A DNA stretch of 64,000 bases from Isoetes taiwanensis (lineage: Eukaryota > Streptophyta > Lycopodiopsida > Isoetales > Isoetaceae). Location: the NCBI GenBank assembly GCA_021234155.1, contig JAJEKV010000084.1, positions 1,942,545 through 2,006,544 of the forward strand, read 5' to 3'. Within the stretch, counting starts at the first letter, position 1, and every line of letters starts with the position of its first letter. A program made the translations under genes and the position numbers. Below the pieces are notes generated by a model, which searched no databases, was not told the origin of the DNA, and saw only the letters and a program-made list of their open reading frames with translations. Of this stretch, positions 19,225 through 52,161 are shown piece by piece.

Positions 19225-20420
19225 TGATGGAAAAATGGTTGATAAATTTACTTTTTGAGTACCTTGAAAGCTGTTGTGCTATAGGTTCCATACAATATGG
19301 CATGTTTATTCATGGATACATTCTTACAAAAGGACTCCATTCCGACCTTGTTGTGGCAAGTGCCCCCGCTTCATATGTATGGTAAATGCGAGCACTTATC
19401 AGAGGCATTTAAATTTTTCACAAATTGCAAAAGAAAGATGTGGTTTCTTTGAGGGTGCAATGGTGGCGACATATATGCATAACATGGCGAATGCTATTTT
19501 TCTTCTGATTGCTTCCAAGACATGCGTGGAGGCTGGAATAAAACCAGATAAGGTCATCTTTTGAGCATCTTAAAAGCTATATGAACCGTAGAATAGGTCA
19601 GGTGGATTCATGAGCAGATCTTTTGAAGTAGGTTTGAAGCCGACATTGTGGTAGGAAGCACCCTCATTGATACATACACCAAATGTGGAAGTTTAGATGA
19701 GGCATATGGAGTTTTTCAAAGATTGCGAGAATAGAGATAGGGTGTTATGGGGAGTGATGATTGCGGGATACATACACCATGGTGAATGCAACCTTGCTTT
19801 AGAATTTGTTTCGAGAATATGCAACAAGAAAATATAAAGCCGGATAAAGTCATATACTTGAGCATGTCAAAAGCATCTGGCCGTTGGGGCTATAATCCAG
19901 TCGACATATCATGAGCAGTTATTGTTGCGGGTCTTACATGCGACATTGTTGTCACAAATACGCTTGTTGATATGTATCTTAAGTGTGGCAACATAGAAGA
20001 GGCATGGCGGTCTTTAGCAGGTTGCAATCTCATGGTGCAGTGTCATGGAATGTGTTGATTACAGGTTATGCACAACTTGGTGAGGTTTGATTGGCTATGC
20101 GGTGTTTTGAAAGTATGCAACATCTTTGGCATGAAAGCGAGATGGTGTAGCATTCCTTGCAATCCTTGCTGTTCTTGCTTTCGTCTAGGTATGTTGGAAG
20201 AAGGGTTTTGGTATTTCCACAGTTATGCAAGAATTTTGTGGTATAACAACAAATGCATCACATATGGCTAGCATGGTGGATCTTTTTTGGCGTCACGGGA
20301 TGCACGAAAGAGGCAAACAACTTTTCTTCAAATGAATATGCAACTCAATACCTATTTGTGGTTAACTCTTCTTAATGCTTGCGAGAATGCATTGTAATAT
20401 GGAACTAGGGATTGGTGCTT
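19225..20420 (+). pseudogene. Pentatricopeptide repeat (PPR, PLS-type) pseudogene
   Basis: Successive 35-residue-like units can be read across frame changes: 'IVVGSTLIDTYTKCGSLDEAYGVF' (about 19640-19720), 'VLWGVMIAGYIHHGECNLALEF' (19740-19810), 'IKPDKVIYLS' (19840-19860), 'DIVVTNTLVDMYLKCGNIEEAW' (19940-20010), 'AVSWNVLITGYAQLGE' (20038-20083), and a weaker downstream part ending with 'ASMVDLFWRHG'. This is the repeat wording of plant organelle RNA-editing PPR proteins. Many stops and frameshifts (for example at 19562 and 19735) make it dead. Neither a start nor a C-terminal DYW domain is found. The wording 'KPDK...' is common in seed-free plants. Confidence 0.75.
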
Positions 20421-20770
20421 TGAAATAATCACTCATTCGGATCCTCTTTGTCTTTGCAACAGTATTCTCGATGTCATGCATTTATGCTACTTGATCCACA
20501 GTACATGAATTAAGTTCACAAGCATGACATGAGTTCAGAAGTGTGCTTTTCTTATTGCCTCTTTGGCATTGTTTATAATCTCATCATATAGGTAAAATGC
20601 ATGGTAGGGAAAATTATGTAGAATTGTTGACCTTTTTATGGAAAAGCTTTCCTAAACAATTTTTAGGGCATATAGCAGTGACATATGCACCTAGGCAGGT
20701 TACAAAGATAGATAGCAATCCTTCTTTTATTAGCTGCCAAATCACAAATATTCTTGTCAAAAACAAGGCG

Positions 20771-20950
20771 TAAGTGCAGTATGGGTTGCCCTTGGGCTGT
20801 TATTTGGTTGGGTTATTAAAAGAAGTATAAAGAAAAAGGAAATTGCAAGGTGCACTCAAGGTGTAAGTGCACTATGGGTTGCCCTTGGTTTGTTATTTGG
20901 TTGGGTTATTAAGAGAAGTATAAAGAAAAAGGAAATTGCAAGATGCTAGT
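20771..20950 (+). repeat. 93-bp tandem duplication encoding a repeated hydrophobic peptide
   Basis: Two copies with a 93-bp period (20771-20863 and 20864-about 20950) differ by a few bases. In one plus frame both read through as VSA(V/L)WVALGLLFGWVIKRSIKKKEIA, a membrane-segment-like stretch followed by basic residues. The reading frame continues for a while (DASAVFKEEVE, then a stop, then VEQQYGTRLLELTTSILKIAEPG). It could be a relic exon of a membrane protein; I do not recognise it. Confidence 0.5.
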
Positions 20951-21532
20951 GCAGTTTTTAAGGAAGAAGTTGAGTAAGTTGAGCAACAATACGGCACCAG
21001 ACTATTGGAACTAACCACCAGCATACTGAAGATTGCGGAACCTGGAATAAGCAATAGGGATCCTCGCAAGTTACGGTGTTTCATTATTAATGTCTATTTG
21101 TCCACCCAAATTAGCACTTTAGTATTATGGGAAGTGAAAATTTTAAAATTTGTGAGAATACCGTGGGGTGGTTGATTCCCCCTTTCTTGAGGGAGAGAGA
21201 GATCTCGTTTCTTTCTTTCTATCTATTTTTTGTTCAGGCTTCTTGTGACCCGATGACTAATGACGAAGACAGGAGCTGAAAATGACGTTTGCAGAAGCAA
21301 CGACAAAGAGCAAGCAAGATGAGGCAACAATTGGCAAATGGAAATTTAGATTGGAGTATCGAGCACTCGAAAAAACAATTGCAGTATACAGCCTCTATAA
21401 TCACAATTTTTTTTTGAATTATATTATTTTGAAGCAGCAATTTTGATTGATTGTGAGAACATGACTTTGAAGTATGATTTAAGCCACTTCACCCTCAGGT
21501 CACAGACGGCAACCCTCCGTGCGCAGCACCTT

Positions 21533-21675
21533 GTTTTTTTTTTTAATTTGTTTGAAGGCAAGGTTGGTGGAACTTGCGCCCACCCACGTCTCCCACCCGA
21601 TGGTAGCTAGTGGGTTTTGAACCCTGGTGGGGGTCACCCCAATCCAAGGTCTTACCACTAAACCACCACCGCGAT
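21533..21675 (-). repeat. tRNA-derived SINE
   Basis: On the minus strand the element starts near 21672 with GGTGGTTTAGTGGTAAGACC (box A), has GGGTTCAAAACCC (box B) at 21624-21612, a non-tRNA body of about 70 bp, and a terminal A-run (the T-run at 21533-21545 on the plus strand). The box spacing is right for an RNA polymerase III promoter. It cannot be a functional tRNA because no cloverleaf acceptor stem is formed beyond the boxes. Confidence 0.6.
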
Positions 21676-21911
21676 GGGCAATTCCAGTTAACATAGAAGA
21701 ATTGCGCTCTAAAGATCTAACGGGGAGGAGAAGATCAAGGGCCCAGATTTTTTTTTGCTTGTTGTTAGAGTCCAAGGGCCCATTAAGTTGTATTAGTTGT
21801 TAAGCAAGAAGACAAAATTGGTTATGAAGGAGAAAAAAACAAAAAGGATTGATGAGCTGAGCAAATCAAGGGCCAAGCTTTATTGTAAAAAATATAAATA
21901 TTTTGAAAAGA

Positions 21912-22009
21912 TAAACTCTCTTCCTCTTTCCCATTCATCTCATTTCTTGTAAAAGGCTTGTAAACTCTCTTCCTCTTTCCCATTCATCTCATTTCTTGTA
22001 AAAGGCTTG
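21912..22009. repeat. Perfect 49-bp tandem duplication
   Basis: The unit beginning TAAACTCTCTTCCTCTTTCC is repeated exactly twice (21912-21960, 21961-22009). It is a recent replication-slippage product. Confidence 0.9.
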
Positions 22010-22448
22010 TGGCAGTGCCTGATGGAGGAAAGTGAGAGGTCCTCCATCACAAGATTTGAGCTTTGAATGATGTTTCCATATAATGTCAATGGTGGGGAAC
22101 ACTTTTTGTGTTGAAAACCATTTTCTTTGTATTTTGAGGGGAAAAATTATTATTTAACTTTTAAATATTCTTCTCTAGACACGCATTCATGTTTTGCCTT
22201 TGAATATAAAATTTCAGTCAACTTCTAAAAAAAGGATAATAATAAATAAAGATTTATTAGGGGGTGTTGGTCTTATGCTTGGCAGACGCGAAAGTGTCTA
22301 GTTCCATACCCAAGAGTTTGGGTACTAAGTCCCCGATTCTTTCCCAAAACAAGACGCTTAGCGACTGGTTGGCTAGTTAGATGCAAATGCCCTAAGGTTC
22401 CACTTTACTCCATAGACCATTTCTTCTTAATTGACGTTCAAATAATAC

Positions 22449-22557
<109 letters not shown>

Positions 22558-22898
22558 CCAATTGCCGATAAAAATTAATTCAATACCATTCATGAGAAAG
22601 TGCAAAAGGATTGGATTGAATTGAATTTTTTTGTCTATTAGAATCCAAAATACAAGAAAGGGTACATCAGTTTATTGTCTAGGATTATAAAACCTCCGCC
22701 TCGAAGGGTTATTGAGGGAAAAACCTTCTAATGCTGATAAAACGTAAATCTATACATGTATTTGTCAATGTGTTGATGCATGGCATATTTGATCGCTTCT
22801 ACCAAATACCTCCTAGATATAAAATGATAGTGCCAAGGGGCTTCACTCTGTGGACCTGTCAAAATCACGTGCATGAACGGAAGGGTGTGGTTTTTGAC

Positions 22899-24507
22899 TG
22901 TGACGTTCCAGAGGAATATACGCTATAAATACGTATATTCCTGGGCCCGTCACCATACAAGTCTACCTAGGTAGCCTTGTATGCCTTAGAAAGTGGCAAG
23001 GGGTGCACATCTAAGTTAATTACTTAACTTAGATAACCTTACCTTATCCTACTGGAGCAACCGCCACACGGCCTCATCCTAGTGGTGCCACGTGGCATCC
23101 CACGTGGACCCACACCTATATGAGCTCTAACCCTAACCCTAGACCCTTTTTCCCTGACCTAGCACCTGAGCTCTCATCCACGTGTTCAAACCCCGTTTGA
23201 GCACCGTTAAATCATAGTCTAGCACGAGGCGGCAGCCCCACGGAGGTGTATATGATCGTAGAAGGAGCAAGCCTTCGAACCACGCCTAGGAGCATGGAGA
23301 CGCCAGGGATGGGAGGAAGCGCTTCTGGAGGAGGTAGGTTGAGTAGAGTTCATGTTAGTTCATCTGGAAGTTAGCGCTCCAGATGGGTTAGTGATTCGTG
23401 TCTAGAGTAGAGCCACCCCAGATGGGTTCGTGAACATCTTGAACCCTAATCAAGGAACCCTAACTGATAGATAGATATGTATGATTAGGTTAAGATGTTC
23501 ATATGATATTGTTCATGATGATTATGTGATGATGGTTGATCATGTTGTTCCTCTTGTGTTGGGAAGGGGGGTAGAGACCTAGGGCCATATGTAGTATGCT
23601 CCTAGTGTAGATCCCTTAGTTCCTATTAGATGCGGCCTGTGCATAGGAACCCACCGAGCTATGGGAGCTATGATGTGACTCAGCACCACACAACGGGGCT
23701 AGAGGCAAGATGGAGGGTGGATCCCCGAGTGGGGACTTCGGGGATCCCATAGTGGGCTAGGCTTATGGTGGTCGCCGTGTGGGCCGAGCATGGGTCCGAC
23801 ACCTCCTGGGGCGATGGTGTCGCCCTGCCTCTCAAGAGTTGCAAGTGTCAGCTTGGCTCTTGTTTTGGGGGGTTCAGTCGGGTACGAATCGTGTGTCGCC
23901 ACGATTCTCTAGCCGCCCGTGGAGCCTCTAGACCCCGGGAAGGGGAGATGCAACCCTTCCTACCTCGTCGGACCAGGGAGATGCAACCTGGAGTAGTCCC
24001 GATGGGTGATGCCATGGGATTGCGTATCCGGAAGGTTAGAGTCATACCACAGCTTGATCTAGCCCATCTGCAAAGTATGCACAGGAGGGGCGGATGGAGT
24101 GGTCAACCCTAGCCATTGTCTTATGCCAGCCCCGCCATTGTTATGATTCGGTCTGCTCTATCTTGAGGCCTATCCAGTCAGTCGACTTCCCTTCGTGTCG
24201 GAGCCACGGGTAGGAGCTCTCATGTTTTATGGCATATGATTATGTTCTTTGCATCTATGGATATGCGATTGAGCTACCCCTCGAGGTAGCATATTGTATT
24301 GTATTGCTAGTTCTGACGTGTTATGCTTCCGCTGTGATAGGAGCCCATAGGGGAAGGGCGCGCAAGACACCTTCGTGTCCCCTTCCCGCACTACGGAGGA
24401 TTCCAGAGTGCGGGGTAGACGGAGGGCCTGTGCGGTTGATGAGCCGGACGGGGGATTTCCTGCCGAGCGTACGGTCGGGCGCCGTATGTTTAGCAGGGAG
24501 CGTCACA
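22899..24507 (+). repeat. 5' LTR of the Ty3/gypsy element (1609 bp)
   Basis: It starts TGTGACGTTCC and ends GGGAGCGTCACA, so the termini form the perfect inverted repeat TGTGACG/CGTCACA and obey the TG...CA rule. One base after its end sits a perfect tRNA-iMet primer-binding site. It contains a TATA-like CTATATGAGC (about 23116) followed at once by two telobox-like AACCCTAA motifs (23128-23142), a promoter layout known from many highly expressed plant genes. ORFs inside it are not supported as genes. Confidence 0.85.
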
Positions 24508-24508
24508 A

Positions 24509-24520
24509 TGGTATCAGAGC
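24509..24520 (+). promoter_or_regulatory. Primer-binding site (tRNA-iMet)
   Basis: TGGTATCAGAGC is the standard 12-nt complement of the 3' end of plant initiator methionine tRNA and is placed one base after the LTR. Confidence 0.95.
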
Positions 24521-24969
24521 GATGTTCTTGGTTGACCAAGAACTAGCACTGACCATAACCATGAAAGTAGTCTAACAAGCCTATAGGGGTGAGAAATAGA
24601 AATTTCCACCATTGAACCTCGAAAATAGGGGAAAATTTTTCTCCTAGGTAGTGGGTCCGAAATTAGGTTAAGACGTGAATGAGTCAAATTCACCTTCTAG
24701 TAAAATTGGAGCGAAAATTATGCATCTGCATCAAATTTCACCTAAAATGGGTCGAAGAATCATGCCAATCGGAGACCTGGGTGAAAAATGGCGCAAATCC
24801 ATAATTAATACTTCAAACTATTAGGAAATTTGAAATTCTAAGGGTATAATACGAATTTTAGTATATGTATTAGAAATTAAACATATATTAATAATAAGGG
24901 TACTATGGTGTAATTAATAAGGGGGGCTAATAAGTAGGCCTATTAATGACAGGAGAATATTCCCAGGGA

Positions 24970-25073: not shown

Positions 25074-26170
25074 ATGGCTCGCACCAAACAGACAGCTAGG
25101 AAGTTCGGCGAGCGACCCACGCTCTCGATGGCGCAGGTAGCAGCGGGACGCCATACGAAGAAAATCCCGGAGCACCTCCGACCTAAGAAGGGGGAAGAGG
25201 AGTTTCCCTCCAAACAGCTAGCCGACGAACCTACCATGACGACGAGGAGGAGGACGCAGCAAAGAGCTCTTCATCAAGGCACCCAGAGAACCGTGAGAAT
25301 CCCGCCATTTCGGGCCTTCTGACACCGAGGTGGAAGAGCGGTGTGGAAGAGCAACCCCAAAGACTGCACTCAAGAGGCAGGCCCTTCAGTGCCCAAGAAG
25401 AAGGGCAAGGAGAAGGTTACGGAGTGGCCAGAAGAGAGGGCCGCAAGGAAGAAGAGAGAGAGAGAACGGGAGCTGAGGGAGCAGGAGAGGCGAACTAAGA
25501 GGAGGAATGATCGGCCCCGAAGGACCGTCGTGATTGAAGAACCTCCCCGGCGTGAAGAAGAGGAGGTGGAAGAAGGAGGAGGCGACGAGGAAGAGGAGCC
25601 GGAGGAGGGCGCAGACCCAAGGCCGCCTTATCCAGTGTGGCCCGAGCCACCTAAGGTGGTTAAGAAGCGTATATGGTGAGCCGATCCTTCGCTTTGAAGG
25701 AGGAGATTCTTCAAACGCCGCCTTCAAGCGCATTTCAGAATACCTCCGTCGTTGGACGAGGTATAATGACTGGTACTGTCGCCAGAATGTGGAGCGCTAT
25801 GTGGAGGGGGGTCGACCCAAGAAGAACCAGCCCAAGCCGCCGCCACCACGACCCGAGAAGCCCAAGAAGGTCCACCATGGGCCTAACTCCCCGCATGCCC
25901 GAGTTTTTCGGGAGATTAAGCTCTTTCAACAGTGCACTAATCTCCTGATTAGGAAGGCACCATTCGAGCGACTCATGCGGGAAGTGATGCAGGAGTTCGT
26001 CACCGACTATCGGGTGACGTCTCTGACAACTAGGGTGTTGCGTAGTCAGCGAAGCGTAACTCACCCAGTTGTTCGAAGAGGGAAACCTCTGCGCAATCCA
26101 TGCGAAGAGGGTGACCCTGATGCCCAAGGACTTGCACTTGGCGCGTCGCATCCGCAAGGAACGCCCTTGA
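25074..26170 (+). pseudogene. Histone H3-derived gene with long inserted tail
   Basis: The first codons give M followed by ARTKQTARK, identical to residues 1-9 of histone H3, including K4 and K9. After it H3 identity is lost except for 'SKQLA', like 'RKQLA' around H3 K18. A long spacer follows with basic (KKRERERELREQERR) and acidic (EEEEVEEGGGDEEEE) runs. About 800 nt downstream the H3 fold resumes: REIKLFQQCTNLLIRKAPF, RLMREVMQEF, then in another frame [15 protein letters not shown] and [13 protein letters not shown], followed by TGA at 26168. Cys110 and His113 equivalents are kept. Lesions are TGA at 25320, a frameshift near 25670, a 1-nt shift near 26050 and TAA at 26057. Undamaged length would be about 365 codons against 135 for H3. 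Canonical H3 versus CENH3 origin is undecided. Confidence 0.88.
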
Positions 26171-26830
26171 GAATGAAGTTTTGTGTAAATTAATGTACTT
26201 GCTAAGTTTTTCTCCTATAAATATAAAATTTTGTCACCATCTGACCTTAAATTTTGTAGGAAAATGTGTTTAAATAGCTTAATTTTACTTTAGTTTTGAC
26301 CATTATAATTGGAATGTCCAAGAGAAAAAATAATTAGTTAAAAATCCTAACTTAATTAGTCAAAATTGCAAAAATCTGACGAAACCGGGTCGCGTCGCGC
26401 AAAACCCATCTGCGCCCGCGACGCAGGGCCATTTTGCGCAACGCCACCCGATTTCGCCATTTTATAGCTAATCCATGTCCAAATTAAGTAACAAAAGTTG
26501 CTAATTAAGTTAGAATCATGCTAGAGAGTCATGTTAGGATCTTTAAATTCCCTGAAACTCTTCATAAAAGTAGAAATAACCCGAAATCGGTCGCGTCGCG
26601 CAAAACCCATCTGCGCCCGCGACGCAGGGCCATTTTGCGCAACGCCACCCGATTTCGCCCAAATTTGCCCAGATTGACCAATTTTGATCCAACAAACTGT
26701 CATGTAGTGTTTCTTGCTTTGCTTTGATTAGAATTGCACTTCATGGTAGTTCATTTGGACACCCATGGCCATAGATTTGAGGTCTTCTCTCATCAAGAAC
26801 CCTTGTGCACGGAACCCGAGGCATCTCTAG
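26171..26830. other. Spacer between H3-like gene and unknown ORF
   Basis: AT-rich, without ORFs worth noting, interrupted by two identical CpG-rich blocks listed separately. AATATAAAATT near 26220 could serve as a polyadenylation region for the H3-like gene. Confidence 0.4.
26388..26659. repeat. 71-bp CpG-rich block, two identical copies
   Basis: Copies at 26388-26458 and 26589-26659 appear identical, 201 bp apart, in AT-rich surroundings. Each contains GCGTCGCG/CGCGACGC (8-bp inverted repeat, 17-nt loop) and GCGCAAAA/TTTTGCGC, which allow alternative hairpins. The block is not coding. Its conservation stands out against the damaged neighbours. Confidence 0.8.
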
Positions 26831-26950: not shown

Positions 26951-28480
26951 ATGGCGCCATCAAGCTTTGTTAGATGGTACAACGACTCCAATCACATCCG
27001 TGAATTCCCTGCTGAGCAAGCCTTTCATGTCTTTGATCATCTCTTTGATCTTCATGCCACCTTAACCAGAACTCCTTATTATTAATCGACATCATACATC
27101 AATATGATCCAGGTTCTACCCTGGGAAGTTAGCTTGCCACCTAGGGGAGGGAAATGGGTTTCCTTAGACTCTCTTACCCAAGCCATAGGTGGGGGATCCA
27201 GGGGCAAGAATAGGCTGTGGGATAGAACTAGAAACATGCCAGACTACATGACCTGTAAGCATCATAGGCATAGGTATCTCTCAAACCAAGCAGCCTTAGC
27301 TTTGTTCATGCAGTATAGGCTGATCCAACCAACTGTGGGGAGCCGTCAATTCAACCTTTTGATTTGGCACCTCTCAACACTCGCAAGGCAAAGACAAATA
27401 GGCATCCACGAGATCGAGACGGCGGCGTACGAACACTACGGCTCCACATCAGAAACACCTGTGTTGCAGATTGAGCAGGATTATGAAGAGGAAGAGGAAG
27501 AGAACCCAAATTGGGAAATGAGGGAGGCAAGAAGGATGGAGAAGCGTTTGGCTCGGCAACAGGAGGTACTAAGGCGAGACTTCGAGCCGCCAATAGGTAT
27601 CACGGCCCTCACCCCGGTGATCATCGACGGCGAGGAGTACATATTCGCCACCGATATCCTCAACCTTCCTTATTGTCAGGAAGAGGGCCTCAGGATGGAT
27701 GAGCTCCTAGGCCTAATGGCACAAGAGCAGGGCAGTGACTTCATCGACTACTCCTACCAAGAGATCCCAAGGGAGGTAGCCGAGCGACACTCCTATGCAG
27801 GGGAGACTATGTCGGACATCCAGGCGTACCAACAGATAAGGCAGATGTTTCAACAGCAGCAACCCGACATTCCGGAAGAAGAATTCCAGGAGATCCAAAG
27901 CAAGTTGTACAAGCCGGGTAGAGGCCCAAGCTCAAGCCGACCGGTGCGCTCCATGAGCGTGCGTGAAGCATCTAGCAGCATTAATCTTGAGAACGCAGCA
28001 ACAATGTGGAGGGACCACGAAGACCTTACAGCAATAGATGTCTTCGGCGAGGCAGCTCGCAGGAGAGGCACGGGAGCCATGGGGCCACACAGGGGTAAAT
28101 CACTCAGGTACTATCTTCCGGCCCTTAGCCAAGGACAGATGATAGTCTTCCACAAGGAGTTCAGCCCAAGGGGTGAAGAATCCGTGGCGCTCCTCATAGC
28201 ACTCTCAGGCTTCGGACAACATGCCAAGATAGATTTCGGAATGGACCATGTTATCCTCTTCAAGAGATCCGTAGCCCTTCATGCCCTCGACTTCGCAAGG
28301 GGCCACCTCAGGGATGCGCACTTGTCAGTAGTGGCGGCATCTGCACCAGAACTTCCGGCACCACAAATTGCAAGAGCATTGGAGGGAGGATCGGCGGCAA
28401 GAATCCTACAGAACATGGGCAAGGGCATAGGATTCAAGAACGTCAAGAACTTCTTCAAGTCTGTGAAGCGACATCGTTGA
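26951..28480 (+). CDS. Unknown protein, ~508 codons, one in-frame stop
   Basis: From ATG 26951 the frame is open apart from a single TAA at 27083; after it 465 codons remain open (first Met after the stop at 27104). The protein has a Trp/Arg-rich N-terminal part (SLTQAIGGGSRGKNRLWDRT), an acidic run of Glu (about residue 178) followed by a basic helix-like stretch (REARRMEKRLARQQEVLRRD), a Gln-rich part (about 300), a hydrophobic C-terminal domain (ESVALLIALSGFGQ...HVILFKRSVALHALDF) and a basic amphipathic end (GKGIGFKNVKNFFKSVKRHR). I do not recognise the family; it is not a gag, integrase or histone. Compared with the shattered gag-pol it is strikingly intact. It sits between the H3-like gene and gag. 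Confidence 0.6.
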
Positions 28481-28806
28481 TGGAAAACTTGTTTTGTAAA
28501 TTAATTAAAGTGTATTGTAACTCTCTTTTCAGTATTATCATGTAACTCATGAAATGTACTTCTATATACTAATTAATGTCCTACCATGATCTTAACTTGT
28601 AAGTGGAATATTCATATGATTTCTTTTGTATCTAACAACAATTCAATTTTGAGCAAGAACAATTAGTGTGTAACTTAAATAACAAGCATTGATGATTAAT
28701 CCTTGCAGCAAGGAACACAGGCTCAGGTTCTCAAGGCCAAGGCCGACACCACCAGTGGGTACCCAGAAACCTATTTGGACGTGATCAAGACGACAACAAC
28801 GACGAT

Positions 28807-29990
28807 ATGACGCCGGAAGCAATCAACGCAAGGCTCGTCCAGATGAGGAACCAGATGCATCAGCTGATCCACTGGGCCACCCCGTTGATGAATGCCCAAG
28901 AATATGCACCTGCTCCACCACCACCTCCACCGCTACCTCAGCAAGGCATCGAGGAAGGTCCACAGCAGGAGGGGCAGGACAATCAGGGGAATGTCAGAGA
29001 CAGGAAGAGGAAAAGGAGAAACAGAAGGAGTCCAACACCACCTAGCTCCGGTTCATGGACACTTGAGGCCGGTCATGACGGTTCTAGCTCAGATAGTGAG
29101 TCCGACACTCCACAGGTAAGAGCCAGGGCAAGGAAGGAAGATGATTATCAAAAGAAAGTTGACAGTGCTATGAGCAATGTGTGGAAGACTAGGAAGTTGG
29201 GTCAGTTCTCAGGGAAGGATAGGTCAGGTATGGAGGCAGAAGCCTGGCTTGACGAGATGGAAGAGTTCGGCAACTCTTATGGCATGAAGGATAAGGATAT
29301 AGGGAAGGTTGCTACAGCAAACTTGATAGGGGCAGCTAGAATCTGGTGGAAAGGCTATGCGAAGTCCAACAAGCTCAAAGGAACGATTCTGATTCAAGAC
29401 CTTGACAAGGCTTTCCTTGAGACATTATGTGCCTAGGTCACATACTAGCAGACAGATCCAGCAGTTCTATAGATTGAACCAGGGTACATTATCAGTTGCA
29501 AAATATACAGAGGAATTTATGCGACTTAGACTCCATGTCCCTGGAGTGTCGGAAAGGCAAGCAGTCGAAACTTACATTGAGGGATTGAACAGCAATATCA
29601 AAAGGCTAGTCCGAGCAATCAACCCTAAGTCGATGGGGCAAGCCGAGGGATAAAGCCATAAGTTTGGAAGAAGCTCCAAAGAGCGCCGGTGAGAGACAAT
29701 CGGCCTTCAAAGGAAAGTCAGCGGGGGCCAGTACCAAAGGCAAGCCTTGAGTAAGCAATCGGCAACCACGCCATCGGGAGGCCGGCATGGAAGAGCTCGG
29801 GTAAGAACTTTGGGGACCGTAAGCGCGGGAGAATGCATCGGGGGCAGCATGTTAAAGCGCATTCTAGAACTGACGAAAGAGAAGAGCGGGAATGTATTGA
29901 GAAGAAGCTTTGTTTCAAAAGTGCTTCCGGCCGGGGCACCGAACCCATGATTGCCCATTCGTCATGCGAGGCAGACCTTGGCAGAGCTTA
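28807..29990 (+). pseudogene. Ty3/gypsy gag (frameshifted)
   Basis: The first ORF (28807-29436) has a Pro-rich part (APPPPPPLPQQ), a basic KRKRRNRR patch and the start of the retrotransposon gag fold (AEAWLDEMEEF, AARIWWKGY). A frameshift near 29425 moves the fold to the next ORF (VPRSHTSRQIQQFYRLNQG, SVAKYTEEFMRL, ETYIEGL). A zinc knuckle of the CCHC type can be read across another frameshift near 29915-29965 (CF..GHRTHDC). The upstream frame stays open for some 30 codons before the Met at 28807, so the original start may be earlier. Confidence 0.8.
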
Positions 29991-30139
29991 TGGATTGGGA
30001 TTCACCAGCGAAGCGGATGAAGACGGCGACCAGCATGAGGCCCCGGGACTTCATAGATGGTGAGTGCCATATCTGTGCAAACATTGAGTCGAGATGACAT
30101 TGAAAGTCAGTCAGCAGTCATTGCGGTGAGGGATCATAG

Positions 30140-33100
30140 ATAGCATCCATATCTAGTATTGATAGATACGGGGTAGCCTCATAACCGCCTCTCCTAGGCT
30201 GGCTGCCCTAATGAAGAACAAAGTATTGAAGTCTAAGCCAAGGCCGGTTGCTATGGCAAGCCAGCCATTAACACACTAAGGGGAGGAGGATCACATTGAC
30301 ATAGACCTTAGTGGAAGTAAGTGGGCCCGATAGGGGGCGAGAGGTTATGGAGATTGGAAGGTATGGCCTTATAGTAGGAATGGAGTTCCTAAAGCCGTGA
30401 AAGCCATGATCGTCGGCTGCGACCGCAATGAAGTCGCCATGACATTGCCGGGGCGGCACCAAATTCATAGTGAGAGGTAAGAAGGCGGCTTCTTCTATGC
30501 GGTGTATTTCTTTGAAGCGGCTAAGGAAAAGTATAGAAAGAAATAAGGTGGATTACATTTTGAGATTGGAGGCAATTGAGCCCAATAAGCGGGGATGGGA
30601 GCGACCAAAAGGGGAAGCAATTGCCCAAGCCATTTAGCAAGGCTTATTTGAATTCAAGGATGTATTTCCGGATGAGATCCGGACTACCACCTTATAGGGG
30701 TGTGGAGTGTGAGATCACATTGGCACGGATGCTAAGCCTACCAAGCAAGGCACCATACGGGATGAGCACACGAGTTGATTGAGCTCAAGAAGCAACTCCG
30801 GGGAATTGCTCGAGCTTGGTTTTATTAGAGCAAGGGTGTCTCCTTTTGGAGCACCCATACTCTTCGTGAAGAAGATGGCGGTTTAAGAATGTGCATAGAC
30901 TATCGCCCGACTCAACAAGCGGGGCGATAAAGAACAAGTATGCATTGCCAAGGGCGATGATTTAATGGACCAGCTCCGGGGAGCAAAGGTATTCTCTAAG
31001 ATTGATTTGAGGTCGGGATACCACCAAATAAGAATAAAAGAAGAGGATATCCATAAGACCGCATTGTAAGCGGTATGGTCACTTTGAGTTCTGATAATGC
31101 CCTTTGGATTGTCGAATGCTCCAGCAACTTTTATCGCCTCATGAGCGGCGTCTTGAGGGGATTTTCTAGATGAGTTTGTCATTGTCTTCTTCGACGACAT
31201 TCTAGTCTACAGCAAGTCCATTGAAGATCATAGTCAGCATTTGAGAAGGGTGTTAGAAAAGTTGAGGCGGCATCGTTTGTATGGAAAGCTCTCCAAATGC
31301 CACTTTGCTACTGAAAGAGTGGAGTACTTGGGCCATGTCATATCGGTAGGAAGGAATCTCCACCGACCCCAGAAAGATCGAAGCAGTAGTAGATTGGCCA
31401 GCTCCAAAGAATGTGGCGGAAGTAAGAAGCTTTCTAGGTCTGGCAGGTTATTACAGAAAGTTCGTGAAGGACTTCGCTAAGTGGGCGTCCCCTCTGTCGG
31501 ACCTCACTAAGAGTGTTAAGGTGAAAGATTGGAGAACACATTGGTTAGAAAATGTTCAAGCTTCATTTGAAAAGCTTAAGGAGGCCTTAACAAATGACAC
31601 CGGTGCTAGTTACGCAAGATCCGAGACAAGGACAAGATAGTAGCAACAGATGCAAGTAAGATAGCAAAGGTGGAGTCCTTATGCAAGAAGGAAGAGTAAT
31701 AGCTTATGATTCCAAGAAGTTGAGCGACAGAAGCGGCTATCCAACCCACGATCAGGAACTTCTAGCTATTGTCAGGGCTCTTTGTATTTGGAGGCATTAT
31801 TTGCTTGGGAGGAAGTTTCAGTTAGATACTGATCATCAGAGCCTCCAATACATCTTTACCCAACCACTCCTGAATCTAAGACAAAGGAGGTGGATGGAAT
31901 TCCTAGAAGAGTATGAATTTGAGATTGCTTATAAGCCAGGAAAGTTGAATGTGGTTGCGGATGCCCTTTCCAGAAGACCTCTTGAGACCAGAATTCATTG
32001 TAATGCTATATCAACTCTTTCGAGTGGGTATGGCAAGAAAATTGAGGAGACATTACCATCCGATGGTGATTTCAAGGAGGTATGGGAAAGCCTTTCTAGA
32101 GAGGCTAGAACAGATAAGGAACGAGAAGCCTTCAAGCATTATAAGAAGGAAGGCAACCTGTTGTATCATAAGCATAAGTTGTGTGTGCCCGAATCATCAG
32201 GGGTAAGGAAGCTAATTCTTCATGATACACACAACAGCCCAATAGCAGGGCATGCAGGTTTTATGAAGACCTACTTCAAGATTGAAGTAGCTACTTACGG
32301 TAGGGAATGAAGAAGCGGATAGCAAGATATATTCGCGAAAGTGTCGGTTGTGTCGGCAAACCAAAGCGGAGCAGCAATTCCGTGAGCCTTGGAACCTCTA
32401 GCAATCTGCGAATGCGAAGTGGGAAGTGGTAAGTATGGATTTTATCACGGGACTTCCCAAGACTCTTCGAGGCAAAGATGCATTGATGGTCGTAGTAGAC
32501 AAATTATCTAAGATGGCACATTTTGTGCCTTGTAGAACTGGAACACATCATTAAATCTTGCCAAGCTATTTGTGAAGGAGATTTTTTAGGCTCCATGGCA
32601 TGCCTCGGGGAGATAATATGGGATAGAGATTCCAAGTTTATGAGTGCTTTTTGGCGGGGACCTCTTGAGACCATTGACGAAGCTCTCCATGAGCGCGGCA
32701 TATCATCCCCAAACAGGATGGTCGGGCGGAGAGGACTTAATCGAATCATTGAAGATATGCTTAGAAGCTTTGTGTGGAATAAGCAGTCCAAGTGGGATGA
32801 GTACATCCACTTGGTGGAATTCGCCTACAATAGTGCCAAAGCAGAGTCATCTCGGATGTCTCCTTTCATGGTAAACCACGGTACCGGTGCTTAACCCCCG
32901 GACACTTGGCACAATCCGGTGTCAAAGGTTGAAGTGTCCCGGCGGATGCTAGGAGATATCACGCCAGTTGGTGGAAGAAGTGAGGGGTTACCTCCTAGCG
33001 ACAAGAAGTCGGCCGAGAAGAGTGTGGCCCGGCAAACCAGGACCGTAAGAGAGTTCAAAGTAGGCGATAGCGTGTGGTTGAAGATCAAGGTCAAGCAAGC

Positions 33101-33530
33101 TAAGCTTCGGATTGGGAGTTGCAAGAAGCTTGCCCCTAGGTGGGCTGGTCCGTTCAAGATTTTGGAGAGAGTGGGCTCCCAAGCCTACAAGTTGGATCTT
33201 CCGGCCCATCTCAAAGTTCACAAGGTTTTCCACGTAAGTTTATTGAAAAGGCACACTCCTAACCCTGAGGAGGTTTTGGATACTCCAACTTTGTTGGAAA
33301 TGACGGAAGAGCAAGTGGAAATCGTGCCTGAGTTACTTCTTGATAAATCATTCAAGAAGACTAGGAGGTCTCAGTTCCTCCAGTATTTGGTCAAGTGGAA
33401 GCATTTGCCCGTGGAAGACGCAACTTGGGTATTGAAGCAAGATCTGGAGAAGCAATACCCAGAGTTTATGAGGGAATTTGATGGGCGAGTCGTCTCCGAC
33501 TTGGTCGACCCCGACTCGCCAGGAGGTTAG
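30140..33530 (+). pseudogene. Ty3/gypsy pol: PR, RT, RNase H, integrase, chromodomain
   Basis: A protease trace, LIDTG, lies near 30160. The RT shows [18 protein letters not shown], a broken MPFGLSNAPATF (about 31096-31130) and the catalytic FFDDILVYSKS at 31190. RNase H follows with the KLSDRSGYPTHDQELLAIV and TDHQSLQYIF motifs (31720-31860). Integrase has an H2C2-like part near 32220-32300, [12 protein letters not shown] (32430), a damaged DNAEFT-type site and FAYNSAKAESSRMSPF (32820). The C-terminal ORF (32919-33530) holds the gypsy HLKVHKVFHVSLLKR motif and a chromodomain (QYLVKWKHLPVEDATWV, about 33380-33430). Frameshifts and small deletions are dense, most of all from 29.6 to 31.2 kb. 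This is chromovirus-like; it is inactive. Confidence 0.85.
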
Positions 33531-34827
33531 CTTAGTATGCTTCTTAGTTAGCCTCTAGCTCTGGCAGGTGTATTCGAGAAGGGGTCAAATGCCTATCTGA
33601 ACACATATACTAGGGGTTTTTTGGCTATCTTGTGCATGCAGGTGGCATGTCATGTACAAAGAAGGTGCGGGGATACTGTCATTACTGCTGGCATCTGCAA
33701 GAGCATGTGTAGCATCTGATTAGGTGTAATCAAATCGACATATCATGCTTGGATAGCTACAAATGCTGGAAAAAATCGAAGTGTGTGGCAGTCATCTTCA
33801 ATGGCTCCCATTTGGCAACACTGACATAACCAAAAGATCACTAAAATTAGGTTGAAACAACAATAATAATCTTTTCTTTCTCTTTAAAAGGAATAAATTA
33901 TTTCCCCTGTGAACGTTAAAAATATCTTATTTTATCTATTTCATTAAAAGAATAAATTATTTTTGCTTAACGGACTAGTAATTTTAATGTCCACGAAAGT
34001 AGAATCTCATCACTTAGGAACTTGAGATCCAGCAAATTACAAATAAAGAGTATAGTAAAAATTTCAAAACACAAAGACAATCATCAGAAGTGATGCAGAC
34101 CCATAACATACCACCAACCAGCTTTCTTAATGACGGAAATAGTGGGAATAGTCCTTTTTTTGGCCCATACATAAATATCAAGGCGAGGCAAGTTTGGCCC
34201 CTTGCAATGCTAGCCGTCAAGTTTTTTATTCCAAAAAGCTTTATATTAAAAAATACAAATAAAACAAGCAAAATAGCCTAGGGCCAATGTCATGTTGGCA
34301 TGTTTAAGAGAAATGTGGCGGCAATGAAAGGACAAGTATATGGATCCAATAGTCACGAGAGGAATATTCATGAGAGGAACTTGCAAGGAGGTGCAATTTG
34401 TTTGCAGGAGCAACTAGATACAAAAGAGTGACAACTGTAGTGGGGGCCTAAGGCAGAGATGCATGAGCATTTGGAATGCTTGTTTATTTTAATGGCTAAA
34501 CGTGTGCGCAAAAATAAAATAGAGTGCGCAAAAATGGAATAGAATAGAAGAGAATGGAAGAAGCATTGAAGGGACACGCACTAGGAAAGCAAACATCTTT
34601 CTTTGATTATGATACTTATATTCAAAGGTGATGTTTAAAAAAAAAGGTAAGGCCCACATTGAATCTCTGGGAGGACGCACATTGGCTCTCCAATATTCCT
34701 CCTGATTCCCAACATTTTGGACCGCCAAATTTGCGCCACCTACTTTACCTAGCTAAAAGCTTCATTACCTTAAGTACCCTTCATATGCTTGTCGGAGAGG
34801 AAGAAGGACCCCAACGAAGATCCGGCG
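33531..34827. other. Region between the retroelement and the AAH gene
   Basis: No gene recognised. It has AT-rich repeats of AATAAATTATTT (33890-33970) and no copy of the 22.9-kb LTR. The last few hundred bases should contain the AAH promoter. I see no canonical TATA box; the in-frame sequence upstream of 34828 does not offer a better Met. Confidence 0.4.
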
Positions 34828-37800
34828 ATGGCGAGGGCGGTGGCAGCCCCTTGCATTTCCGCTTTCTTCTTTTCCTTCCTATGTTTTTCTACCTTTGCCA
34901 TCTCCAATTCCGGTACGATCTTTTTTCTTAGCCTTTTTTTTCCACGATTTGAGCTTTGTTCTTTGGATCCAATCACATGCACGTCATTATGATTGAGTAA
35001 TTGCTTCGATCCCCAGTTTTGGCATTGTTCTTGATAAGCCCTAGTTTATTGTGTAATAGAAAGGGATACTTATGGTGTTTTCCATCTTAGTTCTGTAAGA
35101 GATCATCTTGAAGCCTGCTTTGAATAGTGCTTGCTTTTGGAATGGTTATTATGCGAGAGTTTCCTTTTTTGCTCATAATCTTCTTTCATGTAGAAACTTT
35201 AGAGTTGAGCAACAAGTTTTTGAGGAAGAGGATTCTTAAAGACGAGGCAGTAGAAAGGATCGAACTGCTGGGCAAGGTAAAAACTGGATCAAAACTGCTT
35301 TAAGCCATGCGCAGAAGGTTTTGATTCACAAATTGGTATGATGTATATAGGTGAGCGACTCAACGGAGTGGTTGGAGAGGACATTCTTGAGTCCAGCGTC
35401 TTTGAAGGCAGCCAGATTAATCAAAGAGTGGATGCAAGACGCAGGCCTGGAGACGTGAGTGAAACTTTTACTTTCTACCTCACGTTTTTCTGCGATGATC
35501 ATTTTTAGCAAAAGGACGAAAAGAGTTCCAAGATGGAGGGAGAAGGCATGTCGACCAACCTTTTCATGCACTTTATTGCGTGTGCCTTGTGATATTGGCC
35601 AATGGTTGAACTAGGTGGACCCCGTTTTTTCGAAACGTCTAGAGTCAAAACTAGGGCCAGAAATTTGTGTGGCCGTAGGTTTATGATGCTTGTTGAAATG
35701 TCCGATTCTATTAATGCCGTAGCAAACAAAAGCAGAGGGGGTATGATGCTTTAGACCTTGTTCCTGTACCGTCTCTAGTGAGGTTGGTAGGTTATGCTCT
35801 ATACTTTTGGTCTTATTGTATGAGTGGATCTTATTTTTTGGAGCTACAAAATATCTCATCCATGTGTCATTTATTATATTGAAGTGTAAAATCAACGCAA
35901 TCCCAGTTTAGGATAGAACTGGATCATTAAACGTTGGTAAAAGCATTAGATTGCACACTTCTTATGGTAACTTCCAATGTCCTGCTTCCATGGCAATCAA
36001 AGTGGTTTGTTGACCTATTTGCAGATGGATTGATGATGTTGGGAACGTGCATGGCCGTTCAGAAGGTGCAAATTCATCTTCACCCGTGCTGCTTTTGGGG
36101 TCCCATTTTGTAAGTTTGTGATACTCATTTGTCTTCAGTTTCTTCCAAATGACATCCTGTGACCAGTTTCCTGTTTATTTCTAGGACACTGTCATAGACG
36201 GTGGGAAGTATGATGGAGCCCTCGGCATCATCAGTGCTATTGCTGCTGTCAAAGTTCTTCACACAGAGGGAAAGCTCAAGGAATTCCCAAGACCTGTTGA
36301 GGTATTTTTGTTTTCTCACCATGTTTCGTTTACAAGAAAAAAAAGTTCATTTGCATCTTCTCAGTTGCTTGTCCAGAAGAAACAGCTTTTTGCTTTTCTT
36401 CTTTGGGGATGGTGGCATTAGCCTGCTTGTTTTTGCAATATTTCGAGCATAGTGTCTTGTGTATAGTCCTCAAGTAATTACTTGCCATTTCGACCTCTGA
36501 AGGTAGTAAGCCCCTGATTGGAAAGTTGAATGATATGTCTAGATTCCATGTAGGATTTAGCCATCTGATTTGCTTACTACACCAGCTTAAACAGCAAATC
36601 TATATTCAATGAATAGAGTATATGCCAAATATCATTAAGGAATACATGTAATTAGTACAATTCTGATGATTTAATAGGCGTTGTTGCATCTTCCAACATG
36701 GCCTTGCTAATATGACTGAGCTATTTCAATTTTCTTCATTAATGATTGTGCTTCTTGTTTATGAGCAGGTTATTGCTTTCAGCGATGAAGAGGGCGTTAG
36801 GTTTCAATCCACCTTCCTTGGTAGTTCAGCCATTGCAGGCAAATTTTCCCCAGATCTCTTGTATATATCGGATAAAAGGTATTGTTTGCAAGTCAATTAG
36901 CATATCTCTTTTAAAGGTGATGGTGCTAACACTTTTATTGTTTTTAGTGGCATAACCATGCAGGATTCCCTGAAAGCTGCTTCCCTGAAGGGTACAGAAG
37001 AAAGTATTAAAAGCTTGAGATATGATCCAGCTTCTATATGGGGATATGTTGAGGTGCATATCTAGTTTGGATAAACGGATTTTTGTGGAAGCATTTGTGG
37101 GTTCTGATGTAAGTAATCTTTTGCAGATTCACATAGAACAAGGGCCGGTGCTAGAAGAATGGAACATTCCAGTTGGAATAGTTGAAGCTATAGCTGGTCA
37201 AACACGGCTTCGAGTATGGCTACTACTTAGAGCAATATTGGAATGATCAGATTTTAAATATAAAGTTTTGCAGGTGACATTGCAAGGATTGCAGGGACAT
37301 GCTGGAACAGTGCCCATGAAGATGCGGAGGGATCCAATGCCAGCAGCTGCCCAAGTTGTTCTTGCTGTTGAACGCATTTGTACAAGTTCAACTGACCTTG
37401 TGTGTACTGTGGGCGAGATTCATGCCTGGCCTGGTGCGAGTAATGTTATACCTGGAGAGGTACTGTAAGTTGGGATGCATTGTAGTTCTATGAGAGTAAC
37501 CTTACTGACAGTTGCTATCAACTTTTATGCAGGTTATGTTTACATTAGATGTTAGATCAAAAGATAATGATCTTGTTGAGCAGACTGTCAACAAAATTAG
37601 AGCTTCTTTAAGCGAAATCTGTAGGCAGCGCAAGCTTTCCTGTACTGCTAAGAAAATGGTGCGTGCTGCGTTTCAACATCTGGCTATATTTTGGGGTTGA
37701 TTTCTATTGAAGTTTGTTTTGGTGTTATAGCACGAGGCAAAAGCCACAAACTGCAGTTCAGAACTAGTTCGCCATCTGAACACCGCTGTTCAGTCTACTC

Positions 37801-38174
37801 TCAAGGACTTGGTGGTGGCCAATGTTGAAGGCCATTCCTTACTAGAGGAAGGTCTTCATGTACCGTTATTGACAAGTGGAGCAGGGCATGATGCGATGGC
37901 ATTGGCTCACTTAACCCAGGTACACACCCATGTGAGGAACATTAGTATGGGAATAAGCTTGTCATGCAATTGGAATGTTGATTCTGAAATGCATGTAATA
38001 TTGTAGAAACTCTAGAAATTGCAATAACCCCATGCCACTGGTGTAATGCAGGTTGGAATGCTGTTTGTTAGATGTAAAGCTGGAGTGAGTCATTCACCTG
38101 CAGAATATGTGTTAGATACCGATGTATGGGTAGCTGGAGAATCTCTCCTGCAGTTCTTGCAGATGAAGATTTGA
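34828..38174 (+). CDS. AAH: Allantoate deiminase (allantoate amidohydrolase), 12 exons
   Basis: It hydrolyses allantoate to ureidoglycine, CO2 and ammonia in purine (ureide) breakdown; plant enzymes act in the ER with manganese. Exons: 34828-34912, 35194-35276, 35351-35454, 36025-36109, 36185-36301, 36769-36878, 36948-37053, 37127-37213, 37274-37459, 37533-37658, 37731-37919, 38052-38174. All introns are GT-AG and phases match, giving 466 codons. Exon 1 encodes a signal peptide (MARAVAAPCISAFFFSFLC). M20-peptidase-family metal and substrate motifs are present: GSHFDTV, DGALG, FSDEEGVRF, HIEQGPVLE, GQTRL, GHAGTVPMKMRRDP, SGAGHDAM and SHSPAEYVLD. SDEEGVRFQSTFLGS fits allantoate deiminase and not ureidoglycolate hydrolase. 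It is the only intact host gene I can confirm. The Met at 34828 was chosen because it starts the signal peptide. Confidence 0.93.
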
Positions 38175-38344
38175 AGGAAGTTTTTGGTCCAACATTGTAT
38201 ATATCGCAGATGTATATACTTCATTTCAACGTAGAGATGGAATAGCTGTAATATATAAAATGGAAAAGTGCAACGCAAATGTAATTGTACATGGTAAATT
38301 CATTGGGCTTTGTAAATTGTTGGAAGTATATAAATGTTCCTAAT
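38175..38344 (+). other. AAH 3' UTR
   Basis: AT-rich, short, with ATATAAATG near 38328 as a possible poly(A) signal. It is cut off at about 38345 by the poly(T) that marks the 3' end of a minus-strand LINE. Confidence 0.5.
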
Positions 38345-40760
38345 TGCGTTTTTTTTTTTAGGGTAAGTATTTTTAGATTAATAATGATAAACGGTACAAC
38401 GAGTCCCCACAAAGGACAGATAGAAAGAATTAGAACCCACATTATGGATCCCTACGCATCCTAAATGTGTGTACTTTAGGAAATCCCATTTCCACCTCAC
38501 CACAATGGTAGAGAAACTATACATACTCATCGATTGTTATCTCGACTTGCCCCAACACTTGGGACTAGATCCTCGGAACTCATCTAATGATATCTAAAGT
38601 CGCTATAGAACCCTTCAATCTTGCTGATTTTGTCTAGTCCCTTATGCGAGTTCACCTCCATCCTTTTATGGTGGGACAGAGCCATATAAAGTCACTTCCA
38701 TATTGAAGTAATTGTTTAGTTTCTCAATAGAACATCACAGCGATTTTATCCGAGATCAGTATCAAACTAGGCTATACTAGTTGGTATATATCTAGTCCCA
38801 GAATAGGACATACTTAATGCCAAAACTCTATAATCTTAGAACAGAAAAAGAAATGTGGAAAATATTCACTGGCTTGGAAGCTAAGGGGGCACTGGTCTGT
38901 GGTCAAAATTTCTCTAAGAACCAACTTCATTTTGGTGTTGAGACCTCCTTGAAGAGCTATCCATCTAAAGATTTGTATTCTCTTAGAGCATAACATTTTC
39001 TGTGAGTTTTCTAGGAGAAGTTTAATTAGTTACTGATCCATTCACTTCAATCCTAGCCTCTGCTTTAAGAGGGGAATCAACACAGAGAGCCTGATAAATT
39101 CTAGCCATGGTATAAATCTCCTTGCTTGCACAAGACCCTTTTTTGTTGGGACCATGAACACTAGAAAGCAACTTAACAGTTTCCAAAAAAACATTTAGTC
39201 TATCTCCTTCTCCTGCCCTTTGCACTATAAGTCTGAATTTAGTCCATGAGAACCACGTACCATTTTCCCAAAAAATGATGTAAGTTTATTACTCCATGGG
39301 TTCTCCATTTCTTGAAGACGCGAGGATGGACTAATGCTAAAGGGAGACCATCTTTTTCCCAAACACGAATATTCCAGAATAAACTAATTCTCCTAGTCTC
39401 TTTAGGTATTTCCAAGGGGAATCATACTATCTGAATCTCTTTCCAAGCCTAGAGAATCTCAGCTTTGATATTTGTTAAGCATTATGCAAGATCTAAGGCA
39501 AATCGAGAATCCCTCAAGATGAACTAGGTGCCTTTTTTCTGAGGGAGATTCGATTTGCCTTAGATCTTGCATAATGCTTAACAAATATCAAAGCTGGAGA
39601 TGTATCCCCTTGTAAAACTCGCCAGACAAATCTGGCCGCTAATGCTTGAGCCTGCTTAAAAGGATCTTTGCAGCCTAAACCTCCAGCTTTCCTATCTCTA
39701 CATATCTCGGACCATGCAACATTAGCCATACCCCCTCTACTGATGGCTTGCATTTAGTACTCCTTTCTGAGTTGCAAATACCGACGAGAAATATATGTGA
39801 GAGTTGGTTAGCACAGAGTTAGCAAATGTTACTCTGCTTGCCACAGATAAACTTTGAGCAGACCAAGCCCAACTTTCTTTCTTAGTTTATCTAAAATAGG
39901 GGCCCAAGAACCCTTCATATTGTCTGAAAGGGCAAGCAGTAAACCTAGGATCTTAACTATTTCCCCAGCTACTACAACTGGAAAGCCTAATCCATTAGCA
40001 CAGGTGTCAATATCCCCCTCCAAAGCCCATGGCATTAAGCCCAATACCAGATATAATTTCAAAATCAATCAATATTTCACAAAAAGACTGAAAGCTCCCA
40101 TCATCATATCTGAGGAACATGAAGGTGTCATCCGCATATTGCATAATTATAAGTTTTTCTCCTTGACCTGGCAGCTCTAAACCACAGAGGACCCCTTCCA
40201 AAGCTTTGAGGTTAACCATAGGAAGAGGTAGGGATCAAGTGGGCAACCTTGTCTAATACCTTTCCTAGGATAAAAAGGACCTGAAGGCTCACCATTTATT
40301 AAGACTGATGCAAAGGCAAGCTTGTTCATTCGAATTGAGATACCAATAAATTGTTTATAGAACCCCATATGGCTCATCACTTCTCGCAGGCTATTCAACC
40401 TAAGAGAGTCATAAGCTCCTAAAGCCCATCTTGACTAGTACCTCTGCCTTGTGACTCTGCACTAGTGCATTCCTTCACTAGCAACTAGATAATTGTCAAG
40501 AATGTACCTTCTTGGAAGGAAAGCTGATTGCTCCCTTCCAATGACCTTGTTTAAAATAGGCTTTATGCGATTGGCAATTCCCTTCTACAAGACATTTGTT
40601 AGTGCAATGGGCCGCCATTCTCCAAGCGATTGGGGTCTAGCAACTTTGAGAACAAAACTTGTAGCTAGTGTAGGATGTAATGCACTAATTGCATTTCACC
40701 TTGTGTCGGATGGAGTATCGGACTCAAATTCCTAGGAGGTCTTGATTGTGGGGATTGTTA
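38345..40760 (-). pseudogene. 5'-truncated LINE ORF2 relic, antisense to AAH
   Basis: The plus-strand T-run at 38347-38358 is the poly(A) tail of a minus-strand LINE. Reading from about 40740 downward: RT pieces KGIRQGCPLDPYLF (about 40240), IMQYADDTFMFL (about 40140, catalytic YADD), FEIISGIGLNAMGF (about 40040), then EICRDRKAGGLGCKDPF (39700-39660), and the reverse-transcriptase zinc-binding part RIQIFRWIALQGGLN (38990-38930). Frame changes and stops are frequent, so it is dead. It is poly(A)-tailed and so a different LINE lineage from the ATTCT-tailed elements. It contains an inverted duplication at 39460-39596. Confidence 0.8.
39460..39596. repeat. 57-bp inverted duplication inside the LINE relic
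   Basis: Left arm 39460-39516 and right arm 39540-39596 are reverse complements (47 bases perfect, then a few mismatches), with a 23-bp spacer. This would fold into a strong hairpin. Confidence 0.9.
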
Positions 40761-42860: not shown

Positions 42861-43312
42861 CGAAAATGAATAACCTTCAAACATCCTATGTATTTTCTAT
42901 GAAAAATACCCTCCCCATAAATTTCCTCATTATTTTCCATAAAAAATAGACCCTTCCCATGTATTATCTAATGGACACATATCCAATGGATCCTCCCCTT
43001 TCTAATGGACCATACCATATAGCTATATGGGGACCATTGGGCTCATATTTAGCTATGTAAAGAGTAATGCCTAATGCACATGTAAATAGCAACATATGCA
43101 CCTATAATGCACATTATAACCTACTATGCATTAAATCTATTAATAAGCATTAGACCTATATATTAATATGTACTTGTCCCCATTTTGTGTCTTGAACCTT
43201 CAAAATGGGTTACACAAGGTGTAAATTATATCATTTCGCAAAGTTAAATTTTTACCTTAGAATAAGAATATATGCCTAGAAAACGTGCACCATGGCAACA
43301 TAATGTTTAACC

Positions 43313-52155: not shown

Positions 52156-52161
52156 AAAAAG

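Follow-up and report, generated by a model that had tools for sequence, protein, structure and literature searches.

A histone H3-derived gene under purifying selection in a chromodomain Ty3/gypsy retrotransposon lineage of Isoetes taiwanensis

The closest precedent for a mobile element with its own H3-like gene comes from a fungus. A hAT DNA transposon of Pyrenophora tritici-repentis carries H3L, which is described in the accessible part of the report as neither a normal H3 nor a CenH3; it has insertions in its tail, adjoins an ORF without assigned function and exists in 26 very similar copies that have possibly drifted (PMC3538342). The gene described here shares with H3L the residence in a mobile element, the tail insertions and the adjoining ORF without a family. 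It differs in that the carrier is a plant LTR retrotransposon, that there are two gene types with long fused domains and that purifying selection could be measured.

An accessory ORF between the 5' LTR and gag, as in the present Ty3/gypsy elements, is also seen as ORF0 of Retrosat2, RIRE3 and RIRE8, where it evolves faster than gag-pol (PMC3485330), and among the eORFs of plant elements, only 21.4% of whose proteins matched a known domain (PMC6317226); unlike our case, no histone gene is named in the accessible text of these two reports. The Ty3/gypsy elements of Phalaenopsis carry an AlkB-like m6A demethylase, i.e., this plant lineage, too, kept a host regulatory domain as an extra ORF, but a domain other than H3, and the accessible text on a screen of 121 angiosperm genomes for extra domains names no histone domain (PMC9289625). 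Genetic parasites that bring a core histone, its tail often extended, are also found among DNA viruses: according to the text available for each, six viral H3s are 73-87% identical to the host in the fold (PMC9145170), and a bracovirus H4 joins host nucleosomes (PMC5423620). In the retrotransposons, the fold is identical to host H3 at 77-83 of 94 positions in one gene type and at 57 of 94 in the open copies of the other. Among the papers listed on histone genes in retroelements and on viral H4 in the accessible literature, none showed an LTR retrotransposon with a histone gene, which agrees with an initial annotation that knew of no such plant element.

We here analyse a stretch of 64,000 nucleotides, called the window (C1094:1942545-2006544 of the source genome of 1.658 Gb). 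It contains a dead, 3'-truncated copy within a chromodomain Ty3/gypsy lineage, with the H3 gene between primer-binding site and gag. The parts of this copy are:

22899..24507, + strand: 5' LTR, with the ends TGTGACG ... CGTCACA
24509..24520, + strand: primer-binding site, TGGTATCAGAGC
25074-26170, + strand: H3-derived gene as a whole, in three frames
25074..25319, + strand: N-terminal piece of the H3 gene, MARTKQTARK..., up to TGA 25320-25322; five other copies have MARTKQT in this position
25323..25676, + strand: charged middle piece of the H3 gene with an acidic run, conserved in relatives
25681..26040, + strand: linker, then alpha-N, alpha-1, loop 1 and start of alpha-2 of the H3 gene, in a second frame
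26048..26170, + strand: end of alpha-2 to C terminus of the H3 gene, in a third frame, with TAA 26057-26059 and the final TGA 26168-26170
26951..28480, + strand: second extra ORF upstream of gag, with an in-frame stop at 27083-27085; relatives in 14 of 20 loci of the second type (see below)
28696..29650, + strand: gag in two frames, with PF03732 (1.2e-10) and PF19259 (2.1e-8) on 29393-29650
29901..32891, + strand: zinc knuckle (weak), reverse transcriptase, RNase H and integrase, in broken frames
32895..33530, + strand: integrase SH3-like part and chromodomain (PF24626, 1.8e-23; PF00385, 3e-11)

The Ty3/gypsy context seen in the initial annotation is confirmed by these matches to gag, reverse transcriptase, RNase H, the C-terminal part of integrase and the chromodomain. 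The integrase core gave no Pfam match when the window was searched in pieces. The first part of gag has no credible one either, yet it matches 16 of the 20 second-type loci. The ends of the LTR are confirmed, since 37 of the 40 matches scored in a search of the source genome (from 7632 first-look candidates, the window itself counted) span its full length, 1-1609, with 86-100% identity. The primer-binding site, which we take to be of the initiator-Met type, adjoins the LTR end in relatives as well. Directly outside the 5' LTR stands TTGAC, a candidate target-site duplication that has no partner in the window. A 3' LTR was found neither by comparing 20001-24600 with 33401-44000 nor 23701-24620 with the whole window; these empty comparisons, and the fact that the + strand has CGTCACA at just one other position, 59283, led us to reject a local 3' LTR. 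The chromodomain part, reaching to about 33530, is the last identified part of the element. The complete set of chromovirus features, i.e., LTRs, target duplication, primer site, gag, the order reverse transcriptase-RNase H-integrase and a chromodomain, is found in a relative (L013), and LTRs with target duplication also in the copy L043; the window is without the 3' LTR.

The clade name Tekay was considered and rejected. In a tree of RNase H sequences (quick method, midpoint root, long branches), the window stands with P0001 in a set of 9 rows, the sole named one being from the fern Adiantum, and apart from the rows with angiosperm names, which fall in a set of 102. This placement hints at a host outside the angiosperms. 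A protein search with this RNase H matched 3105 of 3274 candidates.

The window also harbours other features. A long (TATC)n microsatellite lies upstream of the LTR at 22446-22557. An open frame of 1282 aa at 7028-10873 (+), with endonuclease (PF03372, PF14529) and reverse transcriptase (PF00078, 2.7e-34) matches, is by this domain content the ORF of a LINE-like non-LTR retrotransposon. A PIF1-like helicase piece at 52156-53010 (+; PF05970, 5.6e-47) is perhaps derived from a Helitron, and an inverted copy of 52632-52913, 87.7% identical, lies at 57662-57944. Scattered pieces at 36185-38003 (+), two of them without Pfam match, look by eye like an intron-bearing gene, presumably of the allantoate deiminase type.

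The H3-derived gene begins at 25074 with M-ARTKQTARK, as initially annotated, and this start matches H3 residues 1-9. The H3 fold that had been placed further 3' is likewise there: the Pfam family Histone matches nt 25819-26040 within ORF 25534-26190 (E 1.5e-9) and again 26063-26167 (E 2.9e-12), and the gene ends with the stop at 26168-26170. The PDB matches to the two fold pieces (60 of 168 and 60 of 174 matches) are all named H3 or H3 variants, a few being called "Histone domain-containing protein"; with the Pfam matches, they exclude a chance resemblance. The tail piece alone retrieved no Pfam family and no PDB chain at E<=1, a protein search with the H3 frame of the window matched none of 226 candidates, and searches of viral contigs, genome contigs and NCBIfam added nothing. 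From the K9 codon to the KK pair aligned to K36-K37, the gene measures about 254 codons versus 27 in H3, and the middle piece contains 32 K+R and 29 D+E per 118 residues. The fold is identical to H3.1 at 53 of 90 positions and to host H3 at 54 of 90.

In the window the gene is not one open frame. It is interrupted by TGA 25320-25322, TGA 25677-25679 and TAA 26057-26059; the tail frame stops at the second of these, the fold resumes in another frame, and a further frame shift falls between about 26041 and 26048. That the pieces in three frames belong to one gene follows from other copies, which carry the same gene open. Of course, a broken copy also brings to mind a captured passenger or a one-off pseudogene, functionless for the element. 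Captured genes are, in the accessible text of a pertinent report, common in plant LTR elements and often decay (PMC3726574), and an 11-base repeat at 24636 and 26207, which flanks the gene, can be read as a target duplication, although such a repeat arose by chance in 14% of simulations. In view of the other copies this explanation is hardly credible, and we rejected it: the gene is common to the copies, can be open and is under purifying selection, as detailed in the following.

Eight loci were returned by the LTR search. Three of them (the window, L036 and L038) extend past the primer site, and all three have the H3 gene, broken also in L036 and L038; the remaining five (L037, L039-L042) continue with other sequence after the LTR, as expected for 3' or solo LTRs. 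Three further copies, L043-L045, were picked as LTR matches followed by another match that starts 10-12 kb 3' of their own start. Their H3 genes are open, encode 369, 370 and 371 aa, start with MARTKQT about 560-582 nt past the primer site and contain, unlike the window copy, the complete H3 fold in one frame, each with the 57 of 94 residues identical to host H3 mentioned above. All five other copies that were read beyond the LTR thus have the gene at the same place behind it, three of them in an open state, and the window brings the count to 6 of 6; this contradicts the one-off insertion of a histone pseudogene that the initial annotation had named as the alternative. MARTKQTARK is exact in five of the six, and L043 has MARTKQTYRK. 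The LTR pair of the L043 copy is 98.4% identical and has GGTCA on both sides, a target duplication; that of L044 is 99.3% identical, with the differing flanks ATTAT and ATAAT. The protein of the window subfamily is about 370 aa long and consists of an H3-like N terminus, an insert of some 230 residues that is charged, acidic and helical, and a diverged H3 fold. The suggestion that the element had captured an H3 gene and expanded it by a charged spacer is borne out by these copies.

A second, commoner type of the same lineage emerged from a search of the source genome with the histone profile, which gave 8704 first-look candidates, of which the best 150 were scored and all exceeded the cut-off. 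The top 15 matches cover profile positions 2-122, and the eight that were fetched are ordinary host H3 genes of 136 aa. Among the other 135 scored matches are 55 within open frames of 300 aa or more. Twenty loci, picked for long frames from these 150 best scores, all have an ORF of 337-494 aa that ends in a full H3 fold, the one with 77-83 of 94 residues identical to host H3 and thus less diverged than that of the window type. The H3 part is fused to a long non-H3 N-terminal part of some 300 residues, which in L009-L024 and L026 has a MPRFKLTVDLKK-like start where complete; the H3 ORF of L013 gave no Pfam match beyond the histone part. By its sequence, this N-terminal part is a conserved domain without assigned family. 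In L025, L027 and L028, the N terminus looks, on visual inspection, like an eroded H3 start.

That these genes, too, reside in the element is evident from their surroundings. The primer site lies 647-1036 nt 5' of the first Met in 14 of the 20 loci, with CGTCACA beside it in 12 of those, and stretches of the LTR are common to the window and at least 13 of the 20. With pieces of the window as tblastn queries, gag was matched in 16 loci, the second extra ORF in 14, reverse transcriptase and RNase H in 10 each and the chromodomain part in 3; the stretches read measure 9.9 kb, and many end ahead of the remaining element parts. The tail, middle and linker of the window gene were matched in none of the 20. 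L013 is a whole element: its LTRs are 98.1% identical over 1646 compared positions (149 gap columns), CAATC stands on both sides, and Pfam finds gag, protease, reverse transcriptase, RNase H, integrase, chromodomain and Histone (1.9e-43). Similarity to these elements covers the greater part of each of five short-frame loci, L030-L034, with best matches of 82-92%, although in L032 it begins only at 832; the fold of these loci is open, their N part is broken, and the primer site is present in two.

The second extra ORF accompanies the H3 gene in L009, L010, L012, L014, L017-L025 and L028. It diverges fast (23-34% identity between window and relatives). Neither the window version nor that of L010 has a credible Pfam match, and a protein search with the ORF retrieved nothing among the 7999 candidates scored. 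In the window, a TATA-like box stands 5' of it at 26833. Between the H3 gene and this ORF, two identical 71-bp copies (26388-26458 and 26589-26659) lie 201 bp apart; the repeat is GC-rich, with a predicted hairpin of -29.8 kcal/mol.

The H3 gene is a maintained accessory gene under purifying selection, strongest in the fold, rather than a stray pseudogene, because it occupies the same place in several copies, has open frames and shows dN/dS ratios well below 1. Between L043-L045, i.e., in the comparison between copies proposed at the outset, the whole-gene dN/dS amounts to 0.096, 0.079 and 0.161, far below 1. Pooled pN/pS of these copies is 0.193 for codons 1-11, where changes are few, 0.241, 0.165 and 0.218 for the middle parts and 0.067 for the H3 part. 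For the fold pieces, the window compared with these three yields 0.18-0.24. In its comparison with the broken copies, pN/pS is 1.86 (tail), 0.91 and 0.48 (first fold piece) for L036 and 0.74, 0.40 and 0.44 (first fold piece) for L038; weaker or absent constraint is as expected there if the copies have decayed or the frames are misaligned. In the second type, the median dN/dS of the usable pairs out of 190, i.e., without those that are saturated or too close, is 0.039 for the fold (137 pairs), 0.086 for the tail remnant (107), 0.145 for the N-domain (89) and 0.215 for the linker (115). Ranking by histone score depresses dN of the fold; the N-domain with its 0.145 lies outside the ranking. In either type, constraint is greatest in the fold.

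Two tests on the window copy alone agree with this. Of the columns of its fold that are invariant in the family, meaning common to H3.1 and a set of four centromeric H3s, 23 of 29 are kept versus 30 of 60 others (one-sided Fisher p=0.007), and 16 of 16 listed residues that contact H4, H3, ASF1 or DNA are retained, the list having been drawn up after seeing the sequence. In 2000 runs of neutral simulation, lesions as few as seen occurred in 12%, 1.5% and 0.15% at indel ratios of 0.05, 0.1 and 0.15, so that neutrality is not rejected for this copy alone at the ratio of 0.05 (P 0.12). Its stop count (P 0.37-0.39) and its share of positive substitutions (P 0.32-0.34) look neutral, and the mean substitution score is borderline (0.047-0.063).

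The residues of the H3 part point to a canonical rather than a centromeric origin. At columns where H3.1 and CENH3 differ, the window sides with H3.1 by 11:4 (14 neither), 19:6 (14 neither) and 14:1 (20 neither), and the loop 1 insertion of the CENH3 type is absent from its fold. In a tree of the fold, the CENH3 rows cluster among themselves (support 97/94). With residues favouring H3.1, loop 1 not longer and the CENH3 rows apart, a CENH3 origin was rejected. In the same tree, 17 second-type rows group together (100/97), as do L025 and L027 (97/94); L028 and the window, the latter on a long branch, are unplaced near host H3.

The host has SAVL (L004-L008) or TAVL (L001-L003) as the chaperone site in alpha-2. 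The window type has LTTR instead, most second-type copies have FAIL or something similar, and L025 and L027 have HAIL, which is close to the HAVL of plant H3.3. Being unlike that of host H3 in both types, the site makes ordinary deposition doubtful.

Neither type has the canonical H3 tail with K4, K9, K14, K18, K23, K27 and K36. The window type keeps residues 1-9, with one change in one of 6 copies, and has S10 changed in 6 of 6. The second type has a short tail with little kept beyond TGGK-like and KPHR-like stretches; ARTKQ occurs in none of the 20 loci and ARKS, by eye, anywhere in the ORF only in L028. With ARKS almost absent, the usual contexts of K9 and K27 are missing. The initial claim that the element keeps the ARTKQTARK tail therefore holds for the window subfamily and fails for the second type.

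Plants silence transposons via marks on histone H3, and here a genomic parasite appears to make its own version of the very protein that its host uses for silencing it. Since the two types have their strongest constraint in the fold and differ in their N-terminal parts, a shared function is to be expected in the fold; mimicry of the tail cannot be that function, because the second type lacks the H3 tail start. With a probability of about three in four, we read the locus as a dead chromovirus copy with a selected H3-derived gene, the fold of which most likely enters chromatin with H4 and aids the element against silencing. The protein, if expressed, would pair through its fold with host H4 and enter chromatin, or would at least bind histone chaperones. 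As payload, the fold would carry the N-terminal part into chromatin; in the window type this part starts like H3, with K4 and K9 and a changed S10. Chromatin containing the H3-like protein would resist silencing, in keeping with the missing contexts of K9 and K27 in the second type, and this would help the element.

Going by sequence, we prefer such an anti-silencing role to targeting, decoy or packaging. Targeting would mean that the chromatin-bound protein marks or tethers sites for the integration complex and that the choice of insertion sites is its main use. At the end of integrase the element has a chromodomain, too, to which an element-made, chromatin-bound partner would fit; however, the cage positions of this chromodomain in the window, presumably placed correctly by HP1 numbering, are I, W and L, two of three not being aromatic. 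We consider targeting possible, if doubtful. For the same reason, the element's own chromodomain is unlikely to read K9me on the H3-like tail. A somewhat less probable idea is a decoy that stays outside nucleosomes and soaks up H3 chaperones, modifying enzymes or readers. The exact ARTKQTARK in five of six window-subfamily copies, the altered chaperone site and the acidic run would suit it, but no second-type locus has ARTKQ, and the constraint on the fold in both types includes, in the window copy and by the residue list above, DNA contacts that a decoy would not need. Still less likely, and indeed improbable, is a nucleic-acid-binding or packaging protein of the element's particle without action on host chromatin. 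Basic stretches in the N-terminal and linker parts and the position beside gag are compatible with packaging; the H4-, H3- and ASF1-contacts, needless for it, are kept in the window copy as well as the DNA contacts, by the same list.

The anti-silencing reading can be extended to the lineage. Two very different versions of the H3 gene coexist in one genome, and chances are about even that the lineage domesticated H3 as a weapon: the variants would enter host nucleosomes with an element-encoded N-domain and without most silencing sites, whereby silencing would be resisted or insertions attracted.

An H3 kept by a retrotransposon under purifying selection makes it testable whether a parasite edits the substrate of its own silencing. 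The genes are also natural experiments on an H3 fold that tolerates large fused domains. Histone capture, finally, extends beyond DNA viruses and one fungal DNA transposon.
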